Source: a virus. From it: a stretch of 27,520 nucleotides of DNA. The stretch is taken from IMG/VR virus record IMGVR_UViG_3300013137_001607, positions 1 through 27,520 of that record. One strand, written 5' to 3'. The notes beneath the pieces are model-generated. The model was not told the DNA's origin, made no database searches, and worked only from the letters and a program-made list of their open reading frames with translations. Both the position numbers and the translations under genes were made by a program. Position 1 is the first letter of the stretch, and each line of letters starts with the position of its first letter. Positions 7,928 to 18,220 of the stretch are shown here, piece by piece.

Positions 7928-9028
7928 TTAAACTCCTTTTATTTGAGTGAACCATGAAGAATCCTGTAAAGTTCCTTCCCATGAAACCATAAGAGGTACA
8001 ATAATCCAATCCCAATCTTCTCTAATTTGTACAGTGGCAATTTTAGTAGCCATTTCTTTTAAATCTTCTTTTTCAGAAGGATCACAATCGAAAACCAAGT
8101 TGTCATGAATCTGCCCGATGATCTTGGATTTAGCACCAAGATCAAGCAATTTATTATGGCAATGAATTAATGAATACAGTAAACAATGAAACGCAGGTCC
8201 TTGAATCGGACTGTTTGCAATCTTGTTGCGAGACATATATCCTTGGCATCGAAAGCCAGTAACAAGCTCAATATATCCATACTTCATATAGAAAGCTATC
8301 ATCCTATCTTGCCATTGTTTTACTTTATTAAATCGTCTCCAAAACTTAGTCTCAACTTTCTTTACATGATCTTCAAAGCCTTGATAATCAATTCTATCTC
8401 CGCAGACTCCAACATCAATTAAATGATCGATTGTATCGATACCGTCTTTTGTTTTAAGATTTTCTTTGTGCATAATTTCCCAAAGATTTCTTGCACAGCT
8501 TTTATAATAGCTGTTGTAAATCTCAGGGAATACAAAACCATTTTTTGCATAAAATCTAAGAGAATCCGATACATTGTCTTTCTTCAAAACAAAGAGTTCC
8601 GTCGCTTGATCTCTATGCATATCTTTTGTAGGATCTGCACAATATTTTATCAGCTCTGGATCCTGACTTATACAAGCACATATTGACACTTCGAGGGCTT
8701 TGTAATCAAAGCCTAAGATGATGTTTCCTTTACTTGGAAAGATACCAGATCGTGTGTATTTTTTTGCATCTTCATCTCTCACAGGTACATTCTGCCAATT
8801 AGGAGAGGAACTGGAAGAACGTCCCGTATCTGCTTTATGAAGATCAAAGAATGGTCTCATTTTTCCTGTTTGATCGATTTCTCGTAAAAACTGACCAATG
8901 TACGTCCCTTTCACTTTATCAAGTTTGTTTGCTGCAACAAGTTTTTTTGTCAGAGGAATATTTATTGTGTTGAGCACTTCGGCATCAACAGATTTGATAC
9001 CTGAATCAGTTGTTTTCTCTGACTTCAA
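7928..9028 (-). CDS. DNA polymerase I-like polymerase domain (C-terminal part of frameshifted gene)
   Basis: This frame encodes the family A palm-fingers module: TGRSSSSSPNWQNVPV (about 68-83), motif A ILGFDYKALEVS (catalytic D108), an O-helix/motif B variant LRFYAKNGFVFPEI, and motif C IGQIHDNLVFD (H308, D309). Motif C has Asn where Pol I has Glu. No ATG or ribosome binding site starts it. The open frame begins at a TTG with coding-like sequence extending upstream (SLFDILKLK). That extension joins the preceding frame by one -1 shift near 9050, giving a UDG-exonuclease-polymerase protein of about 880 aa over 7928-10569. It is probably the 3' part of one gene rather than a separate cistron. 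Confidence 0.85.
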   Translation of the reverse strand: MKSEKTTDSGIKSVDAEVLNTINIPLTKKLVAANKLDKVKGTYIGQFLREIDQTGKMRPFFDLHKADTGRSSSSSPNWQNVPVRDEDAKKYTRSGIFPSKGNIILGFDYKALEVSICACISQDPELIKYCADPTKDMHRDQATELFVLKKDNVSDSLRFYAKNGFVFPEIYNSYYKSCARNLWEIMHKENLKTKDGIDTIDHLIDVGVCGDRIDYQGFEDHVKKVETKFWRRFNKVKQWQDRMIAFYMKYGYIELVTGFRCQGYMSRNKIANSPIQGPAFHCLLYSLIHCHNKLLDLGAKSKIIGQIHDNLVFDCDPSEKEDLKEMATKIATVQIREDWDWIIVPLMVSWEGTLQDSSWFTQIKGV

Positions 9029-9030
9029 TT

Positions 9031-10569
9031 TCAGTATATCAAATAAAGAATTCTCATGTCATGGTCAGATGTAAAATTTATATCTCTGCCCATTTCTTTT
9101 TTGAATAGTTTTGCTTCGTCCGATGAATGAAGTTCTTTAAACAGATTAATGATCTTCTGTTCAAGTTCATTATTTGTCTGTTGGTAAAATTCTTTGCTTG
9201 CACATATTCCATTCATTTGTATATCAGCAAGAGCATCAAGTCCTTGATTGAACAAAGTCATTACTTTAAGTTGATTCTCTGACATTTCTTTTCGTTGTTC
9301 ATGATAGAGTTTTAATGTCAGCAAAGCATCGATGCCATTGTACAGCAATAATTTATCAAGAGGAGCCTCTTCTATCATGTTAAATTCAGAACCATTCTTT
9401 GAGCGAATGAACGACCTCATTTCTTTGTCGTAATCCTCAATACCCCAACGAATAAATGATTGAAACTTTAATCCTGAGAACGATGCACGATTGTCAAGAA
9501 TATGAGAGGCATTCATTGTACACCAATGCCAGTTGTAAGGCTTCGTGTTAAGAATCTGCTGACTCCACACGTCTTCGAACTTTAGGTTTTGTGCCACTTT
9601 CTTTGCATCATTTACAAGAATCTGATTCCACAAATTACAAAGTATTTGCCATTGATCTTTATTAAATGATATATGTTGAAGAGGAAATGAATATGCAACA
9701 TCTTTGGAATCGCAATAACTCACCGACACAATCTTATGACCTTTATTGAACGGTTTAAGTCCTGTCGTCTCATAATCAAAAGAAAATATTTCGGGAGGAT
9801 TATGAATAATATCTTGCAGAACAGAACGGGCATGATTGAACGATGTCAAGCATTCGACTTTATCATATGGATTAAAGAACGTTGGTAACGGTTTTTTGAG
9901 ACATTGTATAGCAAAGCGTATGTCACGCTCGTATTGAGAAATTGTCAGATCGTCGTACTCATTTCTCATCGCATAGCTTGGATGAAACATAGGAATGACC
10001 CAAGCATTGACAGTAGGATCAGGAATACAAAGCCCTCGCCAACGAGTAGGAGTCAGATCAGTTCCACTGTCATCAGAAAATCGTCCAGAATAAAATGACT
10101 CTATTGCAGACTTCCCCATCAGCCAAATAAACTTTGGTTTTTCTTTCTCTATAAATTTGAGATAGTGATTTCTGCATAACTGCAATTCTTTCTTTGTTGG
10201 TGCTCTGTTCTTTTCGGATTGTGCTGTTTCAGTAAATGGACGACATCGTACAGCATTTGTTTTCCAACAATCTTCATCAAGATCAATCCCGAGGGGGTTA
10301 AGTTTGCTACGAAAAAATTCACCAGCAGACCCTGTAAGTTGTTTATTTTTTTCATCTTCTGTTTTTCCAGGAGCTTCCGCAATGATAAGAATATTCTTTT
10401 TTCCTTTTCCTGTAATTTCCATTTTAGGAGATTTGGCAAATTTGAATAATCCACATTGATTACAATTTTTATCTTCACTTTGAATTTTTGTAAGTACAAA
10501 TTCATCAGGATTAAAAAAAGAACGCATTGTTCCTTTTTTTCGTGCTTCATCAAATATTTTTGTATTCAT
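9031..10569 (-). CDS. Uracil-DNA glycosylase (family 4-like) fused to polymerase I 3'-5' exonuclease domain
   Basis: The N-terminal ~225 residues resemble family 4 iron-sulfur uracil-DNA glycosylases. Cys ligand candidates are C36, C39, C109 and C132, motif 1 is LIIAEAPGKTEDE and motif 2 is MFHPSYAMRN. From about residue 255 comes a DnaQ/Pol I-type proofreading exonuclease: Exo I FSFDYETTG (D265, E267), Exo II NLKFEDVWSQ and Exo III LLYNGIDALL. Polymerase thumb-like helices then lead to FTSDHDMR, where the frame breaks and a TGA follows. The polymerase domain continues in the -1 frame (7928-9028). AGGATAATT precedes the ATG at 10569. The fusion suggests uracil excision coupled to synthesis. 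Confidence 0.88.
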   Translation of the reverse strand: MNTKIFDEARKKGTMRSFFNPDEFVLTKIQSEDKNCNQCGLFKFAKSPKMEITGKGKKNILIIAEAPGKTEDEKNKQLTGSAGEFFRSKLNPLGIDLDEDCWKTNAVRCRPFTETAQSEKNRAPTKKELQLCRNHYLKFIEKEKPKFIWLMGKSAIESFYSGRFSDDSGTDLTPTRWRGLCIPDPTVNAWVIPMFHPSYAMRNEYDDLTISQYERDIRFAIQCLKKPLPTFFNPYDKVECLTSFNHARSVLQDIIHNPPEIFSFDYETTGLKPFNKGHKIVSVSYCDSKDVAYSFPLQHISFNKDQWQILCNLWNQILVNDAKKVAQNLKFEDVWSQQILNTKPYNWHWCTMNASHILDNRASFSGLKFQSFIRWGIEDYDKEMRSFIRSKNGSEFNMIEEAPLDKLLLYNGIDALLTLKLYHEQRKEMSENQLKVMTLFNQGLDALADIQMNGICASKEFYQQTNNELEQKIINLFKELHSSDEAKLFKKEMGRDINFTSDHDMRILYLIY

Positions 10570-12865: not shown

Positions 12866-13213
12866 TTAAATCTCCACAATTGCACTATTTTCACCGTCTT
12901 CACTTACTTCAACAGAAACGTCTCGTTTAATCCCATATTGTTTTTCAATATAAGCAATAAAATCTTCACACATCATTTCACATGATTTATTTCCAAGATC
13001 AAAATCGTACATCTTTGTAGTTGCAGCTTGTAAAGAATGTTTTACAAGAAAAAATTCAAGCTGTCTGTCGTTATGATTAACAGGTATCTTTGCTGTGACA
13101 TGAAACATGTGACGATGTGGTTTTCGAAGAAAACCTACATCTTCAGGTGCATCAGCCCATCGATGTTGTCCTTCAAATTGCCATGAAATTTTAATAAATG
13201 TTTTCATTCTCAT
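12866..13213 (-). CDS. QueD/PTPS-fold protein lacking the catalytic Cys (possible 7-deazaguanine-modifying enzyme)
   Basis: The 115-aa protein has the PTPS/QueD zinc triad pattern, H17 followed by H33-x-H35 (FLRKPHRHMFHV), plus a Ser/Glu-rich C-terminal strand VEVSEDGENSA in the place of the QueD ETxxxxA segment. The catalytic Cys that precedes HGH by four residues in true QueD is a Leu here (L29), so 6-carboxytetrahydropterin synthesis is unlikely. It directly follows the DpdA-like gene with an ATGA overlap and a GGAGG ribosome binding site. QueD paralogs are known in phage deazaguanine clusters. A role on the 7-deazaguanine base, such as decarboxylation of 7-carboxy-7-deazaguanine, is my inference. 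The canonical QueD is separate at 17843-18220. Confidence 0.75.
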   Translation of the reverse strand: MRMKTFIKISWQFEGQHRWADAPEDVGFLRKPHRHMFHVTAKIPVNHNDRQLEFFLVKHSLQAATTKMYDFDLGNKSCEMMCEDFIAYIEKQYGIKRDVSVEVSEDGENSAIVEI

Positions 13214-14169
13214 ATTAATCCTCCTATTTGAAATTTAGTAGAACGTTCTTTTTTTGTCCATCGTCTTGGCCATTTAGGTAAGTTGGATTCAAGATCAAGG
13301 TAATACTGTAAATTTGCTTGATCGCGCATATCAATATTATTACAAACACCAAGTTCTTTAATTATTTCATTACCTGTATGTCTGAAATTAGTAATCGGAA
13401 ATTGAGGATAACCTATTTTATCGTGAGTAACAATACCTTCTTCAGTTTCAAGATCAGAACTTCCTATTTTCAATCCAATACTTTCAAGATATGTTTCTAC
13501 ATATCGTTTTTGTTCTTTGGACAGATTAACAAAATTTTCAGCATTTTCTTTTGCTTTCAATCGTGTTGATACTGAATAAATATTTGGAGAAACATCATAA
13601 CGATATTTTCCGTTTGAATTTTTTACAGGTACAACAATGAGTCCATACTTACCAAATTGCATCCAAGACGTACTATCAACACTTGCCCAAGGATACTGAA
13701 CAATTAAAGAAGGAGATGTCATTGCAAAGCCATGAGTTTTTACTCGTGGATAACCTTTCTCATCACAGATTATTGAAAATGCAGGATCGCCTACACTATG
13801 ACACCACATCGAAGAACTCATTTGTTGACCAAGTCCTCCAATACCTATATATTCATATTGATCAATATATTTTTTAAGCCATTTATAATCTTCACCAGAA
13901 TGAAATACAGGAAGTGGTTTTAAATGATATGTTGATTCAATATATTGTTGTACTTTCCAAGAAAGTTCAGCATTAAAAATAACATCAACATTAACATATG
14001 TATTAAAATTATTAATATTTTTAAGTATAAATAAACAATAGGAATCAACATAATTCCAAAAATCATCTGTTTCATAAAAACTAAAATCTCTCATTCCATT
14101 CTTTGATTTTCTTTCACGAGAATGTTGATTAAACAAAGAATGAGCCCCTGAATCAATCATTAAATTCAT
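13210..14169 (-). CDS. dpdA: DpdA-like DNA guanine transglycosylase (7-deazaguanine insertion)
   Basis: The 319-aa TIM-barrel-like protein is related to tRNA-guanine transglycosylases but matches the phage DpdA pattern. It opens MIDSGAHSLF (D6), then has YVNVDVIFNAE (D62), PVFHSGEDYKWLKKYI, YIGIGGLGQ (about 107-115), KTHGFAMTSPSLI (H146) and WASVDSTSWMQFG, whose D165 is in the position of the TGT/DpdA nucleophile. DpdA enzymes swap guanine in phage DNA for a 7-deazaguanine, protecting against restriction. FolE, QueD and QueE, needed for the precursor, are in the same transcription unit. The ATG at 14169 overlaps the radical-SAM stop (TAATG) behind AGGAG. The subfamily, and hence the preferred base, cannot be told by eye. 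Confidence 0.85.
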   Translation of the reverse strand: MNLMIDSGAHSLFNQHSRERKSKNGMRDFSFYETDDFWNYVDSYCLFILKNINNFNTYVNVDVIFNAELSWKVQQYIESTYHLKPLPVFHSGEDYKWLKKYIDQYEYIGIGGLGQQMSSSMWCHSVGDPAFSIICDEKGYPRVKTHGFAMTSPSLIVQYPWASVDSTSWMQFGKYGLIVVPVKNSNGKYRYDVSPNIYSVSTRLKAKENAENFVNLSKEQKRYVETYLESIGLKIGSSDLETEEGIVTHDKIGYPQFPITNFRHTGNEIIKELGVCNNIDMRDQANLQYYLDLESNLPKWPRRWTKKERSTKFQIGGLI

Positions 14170-15029
14170 TAATAACTCCTAAAACTTTTTGTGAATAATT
14201 CCCAATGTAAAAGAACAGGACTCCTCATGTAACATCGACTACAAATATTTTCATAACATTTGGTTTCATGTTGATAACGTAATTTTTTGACAGCATCTCC
14301 GTTCCAAATTTCTTTAAGTGATTGATTATAAAGATTACCATAAATAATATCATCCCAAAAACTAAAACAACAAGGAACTACATTTCCATTACTTTGTATT
14401 GAACAACTAAGCCAAGGATTCAAACAAATATTTTTTGACACTGAAGATCCTTCATGAGTTATAGTGAGAAAGCAATTTGGAATTGATCGAACATTCATTG
14501 TTGGAAATTTATTATAAAGAAATTTTTTTGTTTCTTTCCAATCAGAATTTTCAAGTTCAATCACTTGCAAATCAATACTTGCATCGGTATTATTTTTAAG
14601 AAGATCAATATTATTCATTAATTTATTAAAGTCACCATTAACACGAATATTTGAATAATTGGACATTGAATCAACACTAATGGTAATATAATCAAGATTA
14701 GATAAAGTTTTTAAATTATTTGTAATTAAACTACCATTTGTACTTAATCCTATTTTAATTCCAGCATACGATTTCAATAATTTAATAATTTCTAAAAGAT
14801 TCGGATGAAGTAAAGGTTCACCAGACATTTGTAATTCAACAAAATATGAACCCCGAAAAGCTCCTTCATCAAGAAGTTTATGTATTAATTTTATATCAAG
14901 AAAGGGTTTCATATCTTTTCTTTTATAAATAGAGCGCGGACACATAATACATTTGAAGTTACATTTACTTGATACTTCAATTTGATAAATCTCAGGAAAT
15001 TCCAGTATAAAAGATGAAGGTAGATTCAT
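14169..15029 (-). CDS. Radical-SAM/SPASM-domain protein in the DNA-modification cluster
   Basis: The 286-aa protein carries the radical SAM motif CNFKCIMC (C23, C27, C30) after EIYQIEVSSK. A GEPLLHP segment (70-76) provides the SAM-binding 'GGEP'-like motif, and STNGS follows. The C-terminal region has SPASM-type cysteines for auxiliary clusters: C202, C209, C220, C221, C258, C263, C266. It should generate a 5'-deoxyadenosyl radical to modify a substrate. SPASM enzymes usually act on peptides or small molecules, and here the neighbours (glycosyltransferase upstream, DpdA downstream, both with overlapping start/stop codons) suggest a nucleobase or sugar. It is distinct from QueE (17157-17846). 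The substrate is unknown. Confidence 0.8.
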   Translation of the reverse strand: MNLPSSFILEFPEIYQIEVSSKCNFKCIMCPRSIYKRKDMKPFLDIKLIHKLLDEGAFRGSYFVELQMSGEPLLHPNLLEIIKLLKSYAGIKIGLSTNGSLITNNLKTLSNLDYITISVDSMSNYSNIRVNGDFNKLMNNIDLLKNNTDASIDLQVIELENSDWKETKKFLYNKFPTMNVRSIPNCFLTITHEGSSVSKNICLNPWLSCSIQSNGNVVPCCFSFWDDIIYGNLYNQSLKEIWNGDAVKKLRYQHETKCYENICSRCYMRSPVLLHWELFTKSFRSY

Positions 15030-16024
15030 ATTATCTCCTCCAACATATTTATAATAGCAGCTTCGCCTTTATTCAGTAAACATTGACGATTAATATTGAA
15101 AGATAAAATAAAATTAGATGTGGCATTCATCAATTGTTCTAATTTTATATATGCATCACTATATGATTGATATCGGAAACAATCATGGTATAATTCATGA
15201 TAAGATAATCTGTCTGGAACAAGAGGCATACAACCAAGGAACATTGCTTCTTGCATTGCTATCCCCCAAGTTTCTTGATCAGCAAATGAAACAGCAATTG
15301 TTGATTGATTTAACAAATCATAGTATTCAGCTTTTGTTTTACAAACATCTTTGGTTTTAATAAATTTCCAATCTGGATATTTTTGAGAAAATTCTTTTGA
15401 AAGATTAAAAAATATTGCAGGATGTTTTTCTTTATCAAGACGATGGGGGAAGATTATAATTTTTTCTTTTTTAACAGGTTTTATATTAATCACTTTAATT
15501 GGAAAACCAGTGACAATAATTTTATTACTATCAATTTTTCTATTTTCTACAATGAGATTCCTGTGAAAATTTGTAGCAACAAATATTTTATCAATGAATT
15601 TAAACCAACTATTCTCAAGATCAGCTCCCCACCTATCCATTCCTTTCTGTGTAAGAAAATCCCAAGGATCATAAGTACCTGCATGTAAACAACCCATAAT
15701 CTTAAAATGCATATTTCTTGCATTACGAATATATGCAAGCATCTCTAAACCAGGAAACCAAAGATCATGAAAGAAAAAAACATCATCATCATTTATTTGT
15801 TTTAAATAAAACATGTTACATATAACAGAAAGTTGTTGTGCTTTATAATAATTTGTACCACACACATCAAGAAAACTACCTTCTGTAATTGTTGAAACAA
15901 GAGAAACGGGATCAATACGAAGAAAGGAAATATTATTTTCTTTATAAGAATCTTCAAACCAATGTCTCCAATCATTACTATATCGATCAGGAAAGCTTTC
16001 TATTGGCACATCAATGATTCTCAT
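15026..16024 (-). CDS. GT-B glycosyltransferase (GT4-like) in the DNA-modification cluster
   Basis: The 332-aa protein has a GT-B outline. The N-terminal half holds HDLWFPGLEMLAYIRNARN and a donor-half linker IIVTGFPIKV. The C-terminal half begins IIIFPHRLDKEKHPAIFF, the usual hinge of GT4 enzymes, and has SFADQETWGIAMQEAMFLGC, which includes the EX7E-like nucleotide-sugar-binding segment (E254 through the EAM Glu). It lies between FolE (ATGA overlap, AAAGGA ribosome binding site) and the radical-SAM gene (ATGA overlap). Phage glycosyltransferases commonly glycosylate modified bases; by context the acceptor may be a 7-deazaguanine or another hypermodified base. Neither donor nor acceptor can be read from sequence. 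Confidence 0.78.
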   Translation of the reverse strand: MRIIDVPIESFPDRYSNDWRHWFEDSYKENNISFLRIDPVSLVSTITEGSFLDVCGTNYYKAQQLSVICNMFYLKQINDDDVFFFHDLWFPGLEMLAYIRNARNMHFKIMGCLHAGTYDPWDFLTQKGMDRWGADLENSWFKFIDKIFVATNFHRNLIVENRKIDSNKIIVTGFPIKVINIKPVKKEKIIIFPHRLDKEKHPAIFFNLSKEFSQKYPDWKFIKTKDVCKTKAEYYDLLNQSTIAVSFADQETWGIAMQEAMFLGCMPLVPDRLSYHELYHDCFRYQSYSDAYIKLEQLMNATSNFILSFNINRQCLLNKGEAAIINMLEEII

Positions 16025-16614
16025 ATTTTTCCTTTATCCAACATTGCAAAATTAATTAAACCCATTGCTTCATCACGAGTTGCTTTATTTTCAGAAAAAG
16101 CACCATACAAAGCAGATGTCACCATTCCAGCATCAGGACCTGTTTTCACTCCACGTAAACTCATACATTGATGAACACCTCTCATTACAAGCATTGCTCC
16201 TTTTGGCTTAATCTTTTCACAAAAATAGTCTAATACATTTTTTGTTAAACGCTCTTGGATTTGAGGTCTTTTACAAAAATAATCAATAAGACGTGCAATT
16301 TTAGAAGCTCCAACAATAAGCTCATTAGGTATGTATAAAAAATGTGCTCGACCACTAAAGAAAACCAAATGATGTTCACAAGTAGAACAAAAAGGTATAT
16401 TATCGAGAAGAATCATTTCATTACAACCTGGATTTTTAAATGATGTTAACTCAGGGGGTTCACTATCTATTGATGCAAACATTTCATTACAAAACATTTT
16501 TGCCATACGTTTTGGTGTATCTTTTATATCAGGATTTTCAAGATCAAATTGAAACGCTTTTTCGAATAAATCCTTTAGAATACTTTCCGTCATTTCCTTT
16601 TTTGAGTTGTTCAT
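16021..16614 (-). CDS. folE: GTP cyclohydrolase I
   Basis: The 197-aa protein is a standard FolE. The zinc site is C79 in STCEHH with H82, and C150 in VHQCMSLRGV. Active-site segments SKIARLIDYFCKRPQIQERLT and SALYGAF are intact, as is the N-terminal NPDIKDTPKRMAKMF helix. It converts GTP to 7,8-dihydroneopterin triphosphate, the first step to folate and to 7-deazaguanines. In this operon it should feed QueD and QueE. The ATG at 16614 has AAAGGAAATTAA upstream and lies 71 nt inside the preceding frame. It is not the related QueF nitrile reductase, since it has the CEHH and RPQxQERLT motifs of FolE. Confidence 0.95.
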   Translation of the reverse strand: MNNSKKEMTESILKDLFEKAFQFDLENPDIKDTPKRMAKMFCNEMFASIDSEPPELTSFKNPGCNEMILLDNIPFCSTCEHHLVFFSGRAHFLYIPNELIVGASKIARLIDYFCKRPQIQERLTKNVLDYFCEKIKPKGAMLVMRGVHQCMSLRGVKTGPDAGMVTSALYGAFSENKATRDEAMGLINFAMLDKGKI

Positions 16615-17116
16615 TTAATTTCCTTTCTTTAACATAATAACAAATTCCTTTGGTTTTCTTTTTTACAGACATAATTTCATATTCAGGAAATTTTTTCCTA
16701 ACATCTTTTATATGATTATCAACACGTTGTTCAGAGGAATTAATTGCACATGCAATTTCAAATCGAGAAAATCCTCCTTTTTTAATCATTTCATCAATAA
16801 TATAGGCTTGAGTTCCTTCTTTATGGCCAAACATACTTAATTGCGTCAATGTTTTAAATGATGCTTCATATCCCCTTCTTGGGCCCTCTGCTTCATCTAA
16901 GAAAATATAATTATATAATTGCTCAATCCAATGTGGAACGCTTTTCAGTTGTTCGTCAGTAAGTGATTCAAGAATAACAGCAATAACATGACATTTTTTT
17001 TCTAATGTTAATCCTATAAAAGCATAATGATCAAATTGTGGAGCATAGCCATATTTACGTAATGTAGCATATGCCTTATTAACATCAAAGTAACAAATAT
17101 ATCGTAAATCTCTCAT
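16544..17116 (-). CDS. Unknown protein with C-terminal winged-helix-like region, between queE and folE
   Basis: The frame is open from a TTG at 17164, but the first ATG is at 17116 (MRDLRYICYFDVNKAYATLR). Neither has a strong ribosome binding site, so the start is uncertain. The product is ~190 aa. Residues around KGGFSRFEIACAINSSEQRV and DNHIKDVRKKFPEYEI look like a winged helix-turn-helix, followed by a basic C-terminus. The N-terminal part (HYAFIGLTLEKKCHVIAVIL) is mixed alpha/beta and unrecognised. The last 71 nt overlap FolE in another frame. Lying inside a deazaguanine operon, it might be a regulator or a DNA-recognition accessory to DpdA. This is conjecture. Confidence 0.6.
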   Translation of the reverse strand: MRDLRYICYFDVNKAYATLRKYGYAPQFDHYAFIGLTLEKKCHVIAVILESLTDEQLKSVPHWIEQLYNYIFLDEAEGPRRGYEASFKTLTQLSMFGHKEGTQAYIIDEMIKKGGFSRFEIACAINSSEQRVDNHIKDVRKKFPEYEIMSVKKKTKGICYYVKERKLNEQLKKGNDGKYSKGFIRKSVSI

Positions 17117-17156
17117 TGTATTGTGACTTTTCTTGAATGAATATGTTGTTGTCTCT

Positions 17157-17846
17157 TTAAACAACTCCTATTAGTTTATGTATCTGCCAACTAAATACAG
17201 CTCCTATTTTTTTTAATTCGGGTTCATTCATCATCCATTGAGTAAGTATCAAAGGATCCATTATATCAAAACTTGGTGAAAACGCAAAAATTGGACACTT
17301 CCGATAAGTAAACCTATTTAGAAGATCATTAATAACATGAACTGCCATATTAAAATCTTCACGATCGGCAACAACAAATTTAATAAAATCAGTAGTGGTT
17401 AAATTTTTAAAATTATTAATATCCATTTTATTATTCATACGAGTAGATGGTAATTTATAATCAGCAACCCAAGAAAATGTATTTCGATAATCAATATTAT
17501 GAAATGAAAAATATGGAATATAAATTGATCCATTTGTTTCATCTGATATATTTTTTCCATTTAATAAAAGTTTTTGTGATAGTTCCATTACTTCATCTAT
17601 CTGAAGTAAAGGTTCTCCTCCTGTAATTGTAATATTTTTAGTATTATTTTTAATAAGTTTATCAAACACCTGTAATACTGACATTTCATGTCGAAGATAA
17701 TTTTTTTCATAACTTTGAGGGGTATCACAATTATTACATCGATTATTACATCCAAAAAGTCTAAGAAAAGTTGTTACACTTCCTTGGTGAGATAAACATA
17801 TTTCACCATTAACACTCATAAAAATTCCATTATCACAAACAATCAT
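17157..17846 (-). CDS. queE: 7-carboxy-7-deazaguanine synthase
   Basis: The ~229-aa radical SAM enzyme has the pattern of QueE: NGIFMSVNGE (cf. FYSIQGEG), TTFLRLFGCNNRCNNCDTPQ (CX3CX2C, C33, C37, C40), and NITITGGEPLLQ for SAM binding. It converts 6-carboxytetrahydropterin to 7-carboxy-7-deazaguanine (CDG), using one 4Fe-4S cluster. The ATG at 17846 is chosen because GGAGAGATTT precedes it and it forms ATGA with the QueD stop; an ATG four codons upstream lacks a ribosome binding site. Middle parts are divergent from host QueE, as is common in phages. QueC, needed to turn CDG into preQ0, is not encoded in the window. Confidence 0.9.
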   Translation of the reverse strand: MIVCDNGIFMSVNGEICLSHQGSVTTFLRLFGCNNRCNNCDTPQSYEKNYLRHEMSVLQVFDKLIKNNTKNITITGGEPLLQIDEVMELSQKLLLNGKNISDETNGSIYIPYFSFHNIDYRNTFSWVADYKLPSTRMNNKMDINNFKNLTTTDFIKFVVADREDFNMAVHVINDLLNRFTYRKCPIFAFSPSFDIMDPLILTQWMMNEPELKKIGAVFSWQIHKLIGVV

Positions 17847-18220
17847 AAATCTCTCCATTCAGCATAACTATCTTCGGTTTCATATAATCGTACACGAGTG
17901 AGACGATACATACCATTATTATTAATGATTGATTTTAAACGTAATGCAAATTCTCCAACCATCAATTCAACAGTTGGATTTTCAAATTGATCATTCAAAT
18001 AAGAATGATCACACTGATTAATAATCAAATCATTTACAATAGTTTTTAACATTGAAAAATCAATAATCATCCCTTGTTCAGGACCGATTTTATTATGAAT
18101 AATTCCTGTGATTTCAACTTCTAAAGAAAAACAATGACCGTGTAAATTTTTACATAAACCTAAATGATTTGGTAATTTATGAGCTGCATCAAAACGAAAC
18201 CGTTTACACACTGAAATCAT
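17843..18220 (-). CDS. queD: 6-carboxytetrahydropterin synthase
   Basis: The 125-aa protein is a canonical QueD/PTPS. Zinc ligands are H14 (FDAAHKLP), H27 and H29 (CKNLHGH), with catalytic C23, the catalytic pair D71-H72 in CDHSYLND, the NPTVE turn (81-85) and the ETEDSYAEW C-terminal motif. It makes 6-carboxy-5,6,7,8-tetrahydropterin from dihydroneopterin triphosphate supplied by FolE and passes it to QueE, whose gene overlaps its stop. GAGGAGG precedes the ATG, which overlaps the HD-hydrolase TGA. All catalytic residues are present, in contrast to the paralog at 12866-13213. Confidence 0.95.
   Translation of the reverse strand: MISVCKRFRFDAAHKLPNHLGLCKNLHGHCFSLEVEITGIIHNKIGPEQGMIIDFSMLKTIVNDLIINQCDHSYLNDQFENPTVELMVGEFALRLKSIINNNGMYRLTRVRLYETEDSYAEWRDL

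Follow-up and report, generated by a model that had tools for sequence, protein, structure and literature searches.

Why do a glycosyltransferase and a radical S-adenosylmethionine (SAM) enzyme sit inside a phage gene cluster for 7-deazaguanine? The question is raised by IMG/VR record IMGVR_UViG_3300013137_001607, a 27,520-base phage fragment that was analysed in its entirety and is hereafter called the window, for which the original prediction had proposed a new hypermodification of the 7-deazaguanine inserted into DNA. In this study, we provide evidence that the glycosyltransferase (GT) and the radical-SAM enzyme very likely serve 7-deazaguanine modification of DNA. Because the same gene set recurs beside deazaguanine genes in many unrelated phages, the DNA of viruses that have it probably contains bases decorated with sugar that are as yet undescribed.

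Organization of the cassette

The coordinates and gene calls that had been given for the GT and the radical-SAM enzyme were confirmed, and all open reading frames (ORFs) of the unit are on the minus strand. In order of transcription they are:

17843..18220, minus strand: QueD, 6-carboxytetrahydropterin (CPH4) synthase (Pfam PTPS (QueD), 1.8e-28)
17157..17858, minus strand: QueE, 7-carboxy-7-deazaguanine (CDG) synthase (PHROGs match, 9e-28)
16544..17164, minus strand: protein of 206 amino acids (aa) between QueE and FolE, its real start probably internal
16021..16614, minus strand: FolE, GTP cyclohydrolase I (Pfam FolE, 2.8e-50)
15026..16024, minus strand: GT, a GT-B retaining GT4-like glycosyltransferase of 332 aa (Pfam, AlphaFold, Foldseek, motifs)
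14169..15029, minus strand: BtrN-like twitch radical-SAM enzyme of 286 aa (Pfam, cysteine set, profile, fold)
13210..14169, minus strand: DpdA, DNA-guanine transglycosylase family, 319 aa (PHROG 887 'queuine tRNA-ribosyltransferase', E 1.3e-39)
12866..13213, minus strand: smallT, a 115-aa QueD-like T-fold protein, PHROG 17812 (hhalign to QueD)

The GT and the radical-SAM enzyme thus lie inside the deazaguanine unit as had been claimed, and the coupling by overlapping genes also holds, with overlaps of 4, 4 and 1 bases for FolE/GT, GT/radical SAM and radical SAM/DpdA, respectively. The unit continues through a further 4-base overlap between DpdA and smallT (12866-13213), a member that the original prediction had left out of its account. 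D6 and D165 of DpdA do not vary among aligned relatives, and a catalytic role for both is suggested by tRNA-guanine transglycosylase (TGT). No QueC was found among the window ORFs examined, which places the cassette on the CDG branch and not on the preQ0 route.

Linkage of the GT to 7-deazaguanine genes

A scan of IMG/VR with the single GT sequence gave no match and a nine-sequence alignment (A1) gave no usable stretch, and a closer alignment (A3) was used. The survey covered the best 80 of 376 IMG/VR relatives. With a cassette defined by at least one 7-deazaguanine gene nearby, 79 of the 80 GT relatives lie in such cassettes, the exception being a 6.5-kb fragment, and after collapse at 80% identity 68 of 69 remain near 7-deazaguanine genes, an association well beyond what chance would give. 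The non-redundant loci with full flanks (n = 36) contain smallT in 36, DpdA in 34, FolE in 33, QueE in 32 and QueD in 30 cases. Gene order is shuffled between loci and the gene set is kept; GT and DpdA lie on the same strand within 60 bases of each other in 39 of 62 loci.

The GT also matched 20 records of cultured phages. The good matches among them come from five distinct phages (PA5oct-like, Acidovorax ACP17, Sinorhizobium Phosso, Xanthomonas X1 and Synechococcus BUCT-ZZ01), which all carry GT and smallT within a deazaguanine cluster, with no DpdA within 7 kb in Phosso; in the PA5oct-like phage PAC2, a 540-aa ORF without PHROG match overlaps the GT and has a TGT-like motif, DSGGFQ, recognized by eye. 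In 84,980 bacterial and archaeal genomes, only three GT relatives were detected, on contigs of metagenome-assembled genomes, and all of them were in a deazaguanine cassette.

It could be supposed that the GT merely belongs to the phage backbone, and this explanation was rejected, because three relatives found through the sliding clamp keep QueD-QueE-FolE-DpdA yet lack both GT and smallT. More generally, among loci retrieved through DpdA or the sliding clamp rather than through the GT, and extending 4.5 kb or more upstream of DpdA, 27 had both GT and smallT, 7 had neither and none had only one of the two. These rows are related by descent, and the counts are not independent trials. Cassettes without the pair (L129, L136-L138, L171, L172 and L179) belong to the same lineage and retain QueD-QueE-FolE-DpdA, and the GT-less cassettes of this phage lineage also lack both main radical-SAM families described below.

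These observations bear directly on the possibility that GT and radical SAM work in another pathway (surface glycan, peptide maturation or tRNA queuosine glycosylation) and are linked to the cassette by lineage only: GT-B and SPASM superfamilies are indeed common in surface-glycan and peptide-maturation clusters, but this is very improbable here, given that the association persists between unrelated phages and when the gene order changes, that GT and smallT come and go as a pair within one lineage, that the 84,980-genome scan found no surface-glycan or chromosomal GT homologs outside deazaguanine cassettes, and that the clusters inspected showed no queuosine gene acting later than preQ0. Homologs lying mostly away from dpdA or queE would have contradicted the original prediction, and the survey instead placed the GT and radical-SAM homologs almost always in deazaguanine cassettes.

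The GT as a divergent GT4-like enzyme

Structure prediction bore out the GT-B fold that had been assigned to the GT (AlphaFold pLDDT 88, pTM 0.85), and its nearest Foldseek neighbours are BshA and MshA (E 3e-10). The protein is divergent, with Pfam matches to Glycos_transf_1 (2e-5; 24.7 bits, under the gathering threshold of 26.4) and Glyco_transf_4 (0.0024). Its motifs include EX7E (E251-E259), the donor-site residues HR195/K200, and invariant H114-A-G and D122; E259, R195 and K200 are invariant in nine sequences and E251 in a ten-sequence alignment. Judged from these alignments, EX7E and R195/K200 are conserved as in retaining GT4 enzymes. BshA and MshA are GT4 enzymes that transfer N-acetylglucosamine (GlcNAc) from UDP-GlcNAc to malate or inositol phosphate. 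They have the fold, EX7E and donor-site motifs in common with the GT, while identity is 13-15% and genomic context points to a different acceptor. No T4 glycosyltransferase was among the 50 best structural matches of the window GT.

More distant matches in PhiXhv/Ep032 (24%, four records) belong to a GlmS/deacetylase cluster that has no deazaguanine genes, and were taken as outgroup. In one of them, Xanthomonas phage PhiXhv-12 (L011), the GT relative shares its cluster with a GlmS-like aminotransferase, a deacetylase of GlcNAc-malate type and a Leu/Phe-tRNA-protein transferase, and this cluster, free of deazaguanine genes, is possibly another sugar-based DNA modification.

Some loci have extra genes adjoining the GT (L080:4958-5677, L101:9074-10024, L001:8806-9318 and L010:4986-6329), their types being nucleoside triphosphate (NTP)-transferase, NAD-dependent epimerases and a second GT4. 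These genes hint that some phages make their own sugar donor. In Xanthomonas phage X1 (L004:5864-6511), a protein with a PIG-L-like motif, SPHVDDE, seen by eye and without Pfam hit, adjoins GT and DpdA, and would fit a deacetylated GlcNAc sugar. A PIG-L deacetylase as a general part of the module was rejected, being present in only 2 of 24 records.

smallT in the place of QueC

smallT is a remote relative of QueD (hhalign 90%, E 1.5e-6). Zinc-type histidines H17, H33 and H35 are invariant, as are SCE 77-79 and ED 105-106, and its alignment has no equivalent of the catalytic QueD residues C23 or D71-H72, which are invariant in the QueD alignment (A7). QueC was searched for with PF06508 over whole records. 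It did not exceed the cut-off in any of 23 records with GT and smallT. These make up all but one of the 24 GT records, and the sole GT record with a true QueC, the contig of L095, is without smallT and has its GT near the contig end. Conversely, all eight DpdA records without GT and smallT had QueC over the cut-off, one as a fragment. Six smallT phages without GT (phiST and five others) include one with a partial QueC match. Phages with smallT but no GT include Cellulophaga phiST, Rhizobium RHph_I1_18, Vibrio Bakedbeans and Aeromonas Ahp1, and smallT is near FolE in all such phages but Faecalibacterium Roos. Taken together, QueC occurs in 1 of 29 records with smallT and in 9 of 9 without it (Fisher P 6e-8, uncorrected for kinship).

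From this distribution, smallT appears to take the place of QueC. Since the two are mutually exclusive in DpdA cassettes, the substrate of QueC, CDG, is very probably also that of smallT, and our leading guess is that smallT would decarboxylate CDG to 7-deazaguanine. A CDG decarboxylase, DpdL, was reportedly named by Cui in 2023 and is an obvious candidate for the identity of smallT. Matches to QueF in GT records were all below cut-off, probably reflect FolE, and were discarded.

An exchangeable radical-SAM slot

The window radical-SAM protein matches Pfam Radical_SAM (2.8e-17) and SPASM (3.1e-15). The label SPASM, under which it was originally described, is therefore upheld by the Pfam match but not by the cysteine set, which is that of a twitch enzyme of BtrN type with one auxiliary cluster; twitch is the better name. 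The CX3CX2C motif (C23/C27/C30) and the auxiliary set (C202-x17-C220 ... C263-x2-C266) are invariant in 10 sequences. BtrN, a radical dehydrogenase of an aminocyclitol in the butirosin pathway, is the first match both by profile (1e-16) and by fold of the predicted structure (1.9e-11), followed by MoaA, BlsE, SpeY and EpeE. BtrN and the window protein share CX3CX2C and a single four-cysteine auxiliary cluster, aligned cysteine for cysteine, but identity is about 21%, and aminoglycoside synthesis contrasts with a phage DNA-modification setting. Against the twitch subfamily NF033640 the protein scores 79 bits, under the cut-off of 170. Its ten relatives (33-51% identity) all lie beside DpdA, nine of them with GT; the contig of the tenth is cut just upstream.

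A second, unrelated family, here called rSAM2 (440-500 aa, CX3CX2C after an N-terminal part of about 180 residues; for example L063:6508-8004), occupies other cassettes. All 29 rSAM2 relatives occur with GT (27 from a separate scan plus L055/L056), and in NCBIfam the family comes closest, at scores far under the cut-offs, to PhpK and to AprD4, a sugar diol-dehydratase. Across the 80 GT loci, 17 carry the BtrN-like family, 28 carry rSAM2 and none carries both, and the same exclusion is seen in 49 non-redundant full-flank loci (11, 17 and none; hypergeometric P 0.004). A third radical-SAM type of 216-235 aa without auxiliary domain is found in the same cassette slot (L033:8999-9649, L070:5174-5860 and L087:7297-8004, for L087/L088). 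Parsimony on the GT tree gives about 19 changes of radical-SAM type, fewer of them being forced by strongly supported branches. The radical-SAM slot is thus exchangeable between families, and the module proposed originally is refined accordingly: the radical SAM is an exchangeable accessory, and smallT, in QueC's place, is a member.

The GT cassettes of L130 and L131 have an additional QueE-like gene, placed between smallT and DpdA, which could be another radical-SAM variant. Matches of the radical SAM in cultured phages of Campylobacter, Listeria and other hosts (23-36% identity) were set aside as belonging to the superfamily at large, and the viperin matches from PADLOC reflect the radical-SAM core only.

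A putative pathway and its alternatives

We propose that FolE, QueD and QueE, assigned by family, would convert GTP to CDG, which, QueC being absent, smallT may turn into an altered base. DpdA, likewise placed by family, would exchange guanines in DNA for this base, the GT would transfer a sugar from a nucleoside diphosphate (NDP)-sugar to the inserted base, at C7 or a C7 group, and the BtrN-like radical SAM could oxidise, epimerise or deoxygenate the attached sugar by hydrogen abstraction. The end product would be bulky, restriction-resistant DNA, the outermost group of which may be varied by swapping the radical-SAM gene. We consider this sequence of steps, from FolE/QueD/QueE through smallT, DpdA and the GT to the radical SAM, somewhat better than an even bet. 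Radical SAMs most likely act after the GT, to judge from gene content, because they occur with the GT and the GT also occurs without them. The structural and profile neighbours of GT, radical SAM and rSAM2 are mostly sugar or aminocyclitol tailoring enzymes, and we infer from the likeness to BtrN and AprD4 that a sugar is the natural radical-SAM target.

An alternative order, which we regard as rather unlikely, has the radical SAM act on the 7-deazaguanine base before the GT, making or altering the C7 group that takes the sugar. QueE and MoaA, with guanine-derived substrates, are also among the structural and profile matches of the radical SAM, and its gene is ahead of the GT in transcription order in 11 of 16 loci. 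However, the closest matches, BtrN, SpeY and BlsE, act on sugars or cyclitols, and many GT cassettes are without a BtrN-like radical SAM, so that the GT is in general independent of a radical-SAM product. It is also conceivable, though quite improbable, that the free base or nucleotide is glycosylated first and that DpdA inserts the finished glycosylated base: the GT adjoins DpdA in most loci and DpdA by nature inserts pre-made bases, but a base with a sugar attached would fit poorly, by its bulk, into a TGT pocket, and the known phage DNA glucosyltransferases work post-replication (T4 a-/b-GT; PMC13216743).

Several points weigh against glycosylation after insertion followed by radical tailoring. 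If smallT is a decarboxylase, C7 is unsubstituted and the GT needs a C7 C-glycoside or another atom; a decarboxylated base would offer the GT only C7, an uncommon acceptor for GT4 enzymes, and this is the weakest link of the mechanism. About 40% of full-flank GT loci carry neither main radical-SAM family. With about 20% identity and scores well under the NCBIfam cut-offs, the likeness to BtrN and AprD4 is too distant to fix the substrate. In addition, the surveyed loci are phylogenetically non-independent, and every catalytic act is deduced from the observed families and linkage. The hypermodification first proposed is consequently supported in its linkage to deazaguanine cassettes, and the glycosylated, radically changed base is kept as a putative product.

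Beyond the window, we tentatively suggest, at somewhat less than even confidence, a widespread and undescribed class of phage DNA in which guanine gives way to a 7-deazaguanine formed independently of QueC, by a QueD-like enzyme acting on CDG; the inserted base would then receive a sugar, perhaps by a C-glycosidic bond at C7, and this sugar would be varied by interchangeable radical SAMs of BtrN-like, AprD4/PhpK-like or short form. If the proposal is true, a conserved module of GT, QueD-like protein and exchangeable radical SAM in hundreds of contigs would mean that phage DNA contains sugar-bearing, radically tailored purines, a purine counterpart of T4 glucosylated cytosine, and a QueD-like protein replacing QueC would create a new fork at CDG, together providing new chemistry for restriction and CRISPR evasion.

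Other features of the window

The window has a G+C content of about 32%, and its minus strand also carries a DNA-replication gene set. PolA (7928-10569) is present as two ORFs in different frames with a break near 9030; in L007 and L009 it is one ORF of about 870 aa, and the split is a frameshift or a sequencing error. Relatives of the 206-aa ORF occur at the same position in L007 and, weakly, in L020.

Comparison with known systems

In T4-type hypermodification, hydroxymethylcytosine is decorated by glucosyltransferases, and arabinosyl-hydroxycytosine is also formed. A phage GT-B enzyme decorating a modified base in DNA is expected here too, while that base would be 7-deazaguanine, a purine introduced by transglycosylation, and the GT is GT4-like. 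QTMAN and QTGAL, which attach mannose or galactose to the queuosine of animal tRNA, are a precedent, likened by function alone, for glycosylating a 7-deazaguanine derivative in nucleic acid, but animal tRNA and a cyclopentenediol acceptor set them apart from the phage cassette. Methyl, formyl, DG and CDG derivatives of 7-deazaguanine in DNA were reportedly found by Cui in 2023. In the literature searched, the described 7-deazaguanine DNA modifications have small groups at C7 only, and we found no description of glycosylated 7-deazaguanine DNA there, although one may have been published elsewhere.

The closest known system is the phage DpdA modification, exemplified by dG+ of phage 9g and dPreQ0 of CAjan and Rosebush (Hutinet 2019, PMC6884629), in a text that contains neither 'glycos' nor 'radical'. 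A deazaguanine system has also been reported for PA5oct, the main text mentioning no linked GT (PMC7824862). In the known system FolE, QueD and QueE make CDG and DpdA inserts the base, as is predicted here, and the genes are clustered in both, whereas the window cassette has no QueC, has smallT instead, and adds a GT and a radical SAM. The core of the cassette is thus already known, and the module of GT, smallT and radical SAM is its new part.

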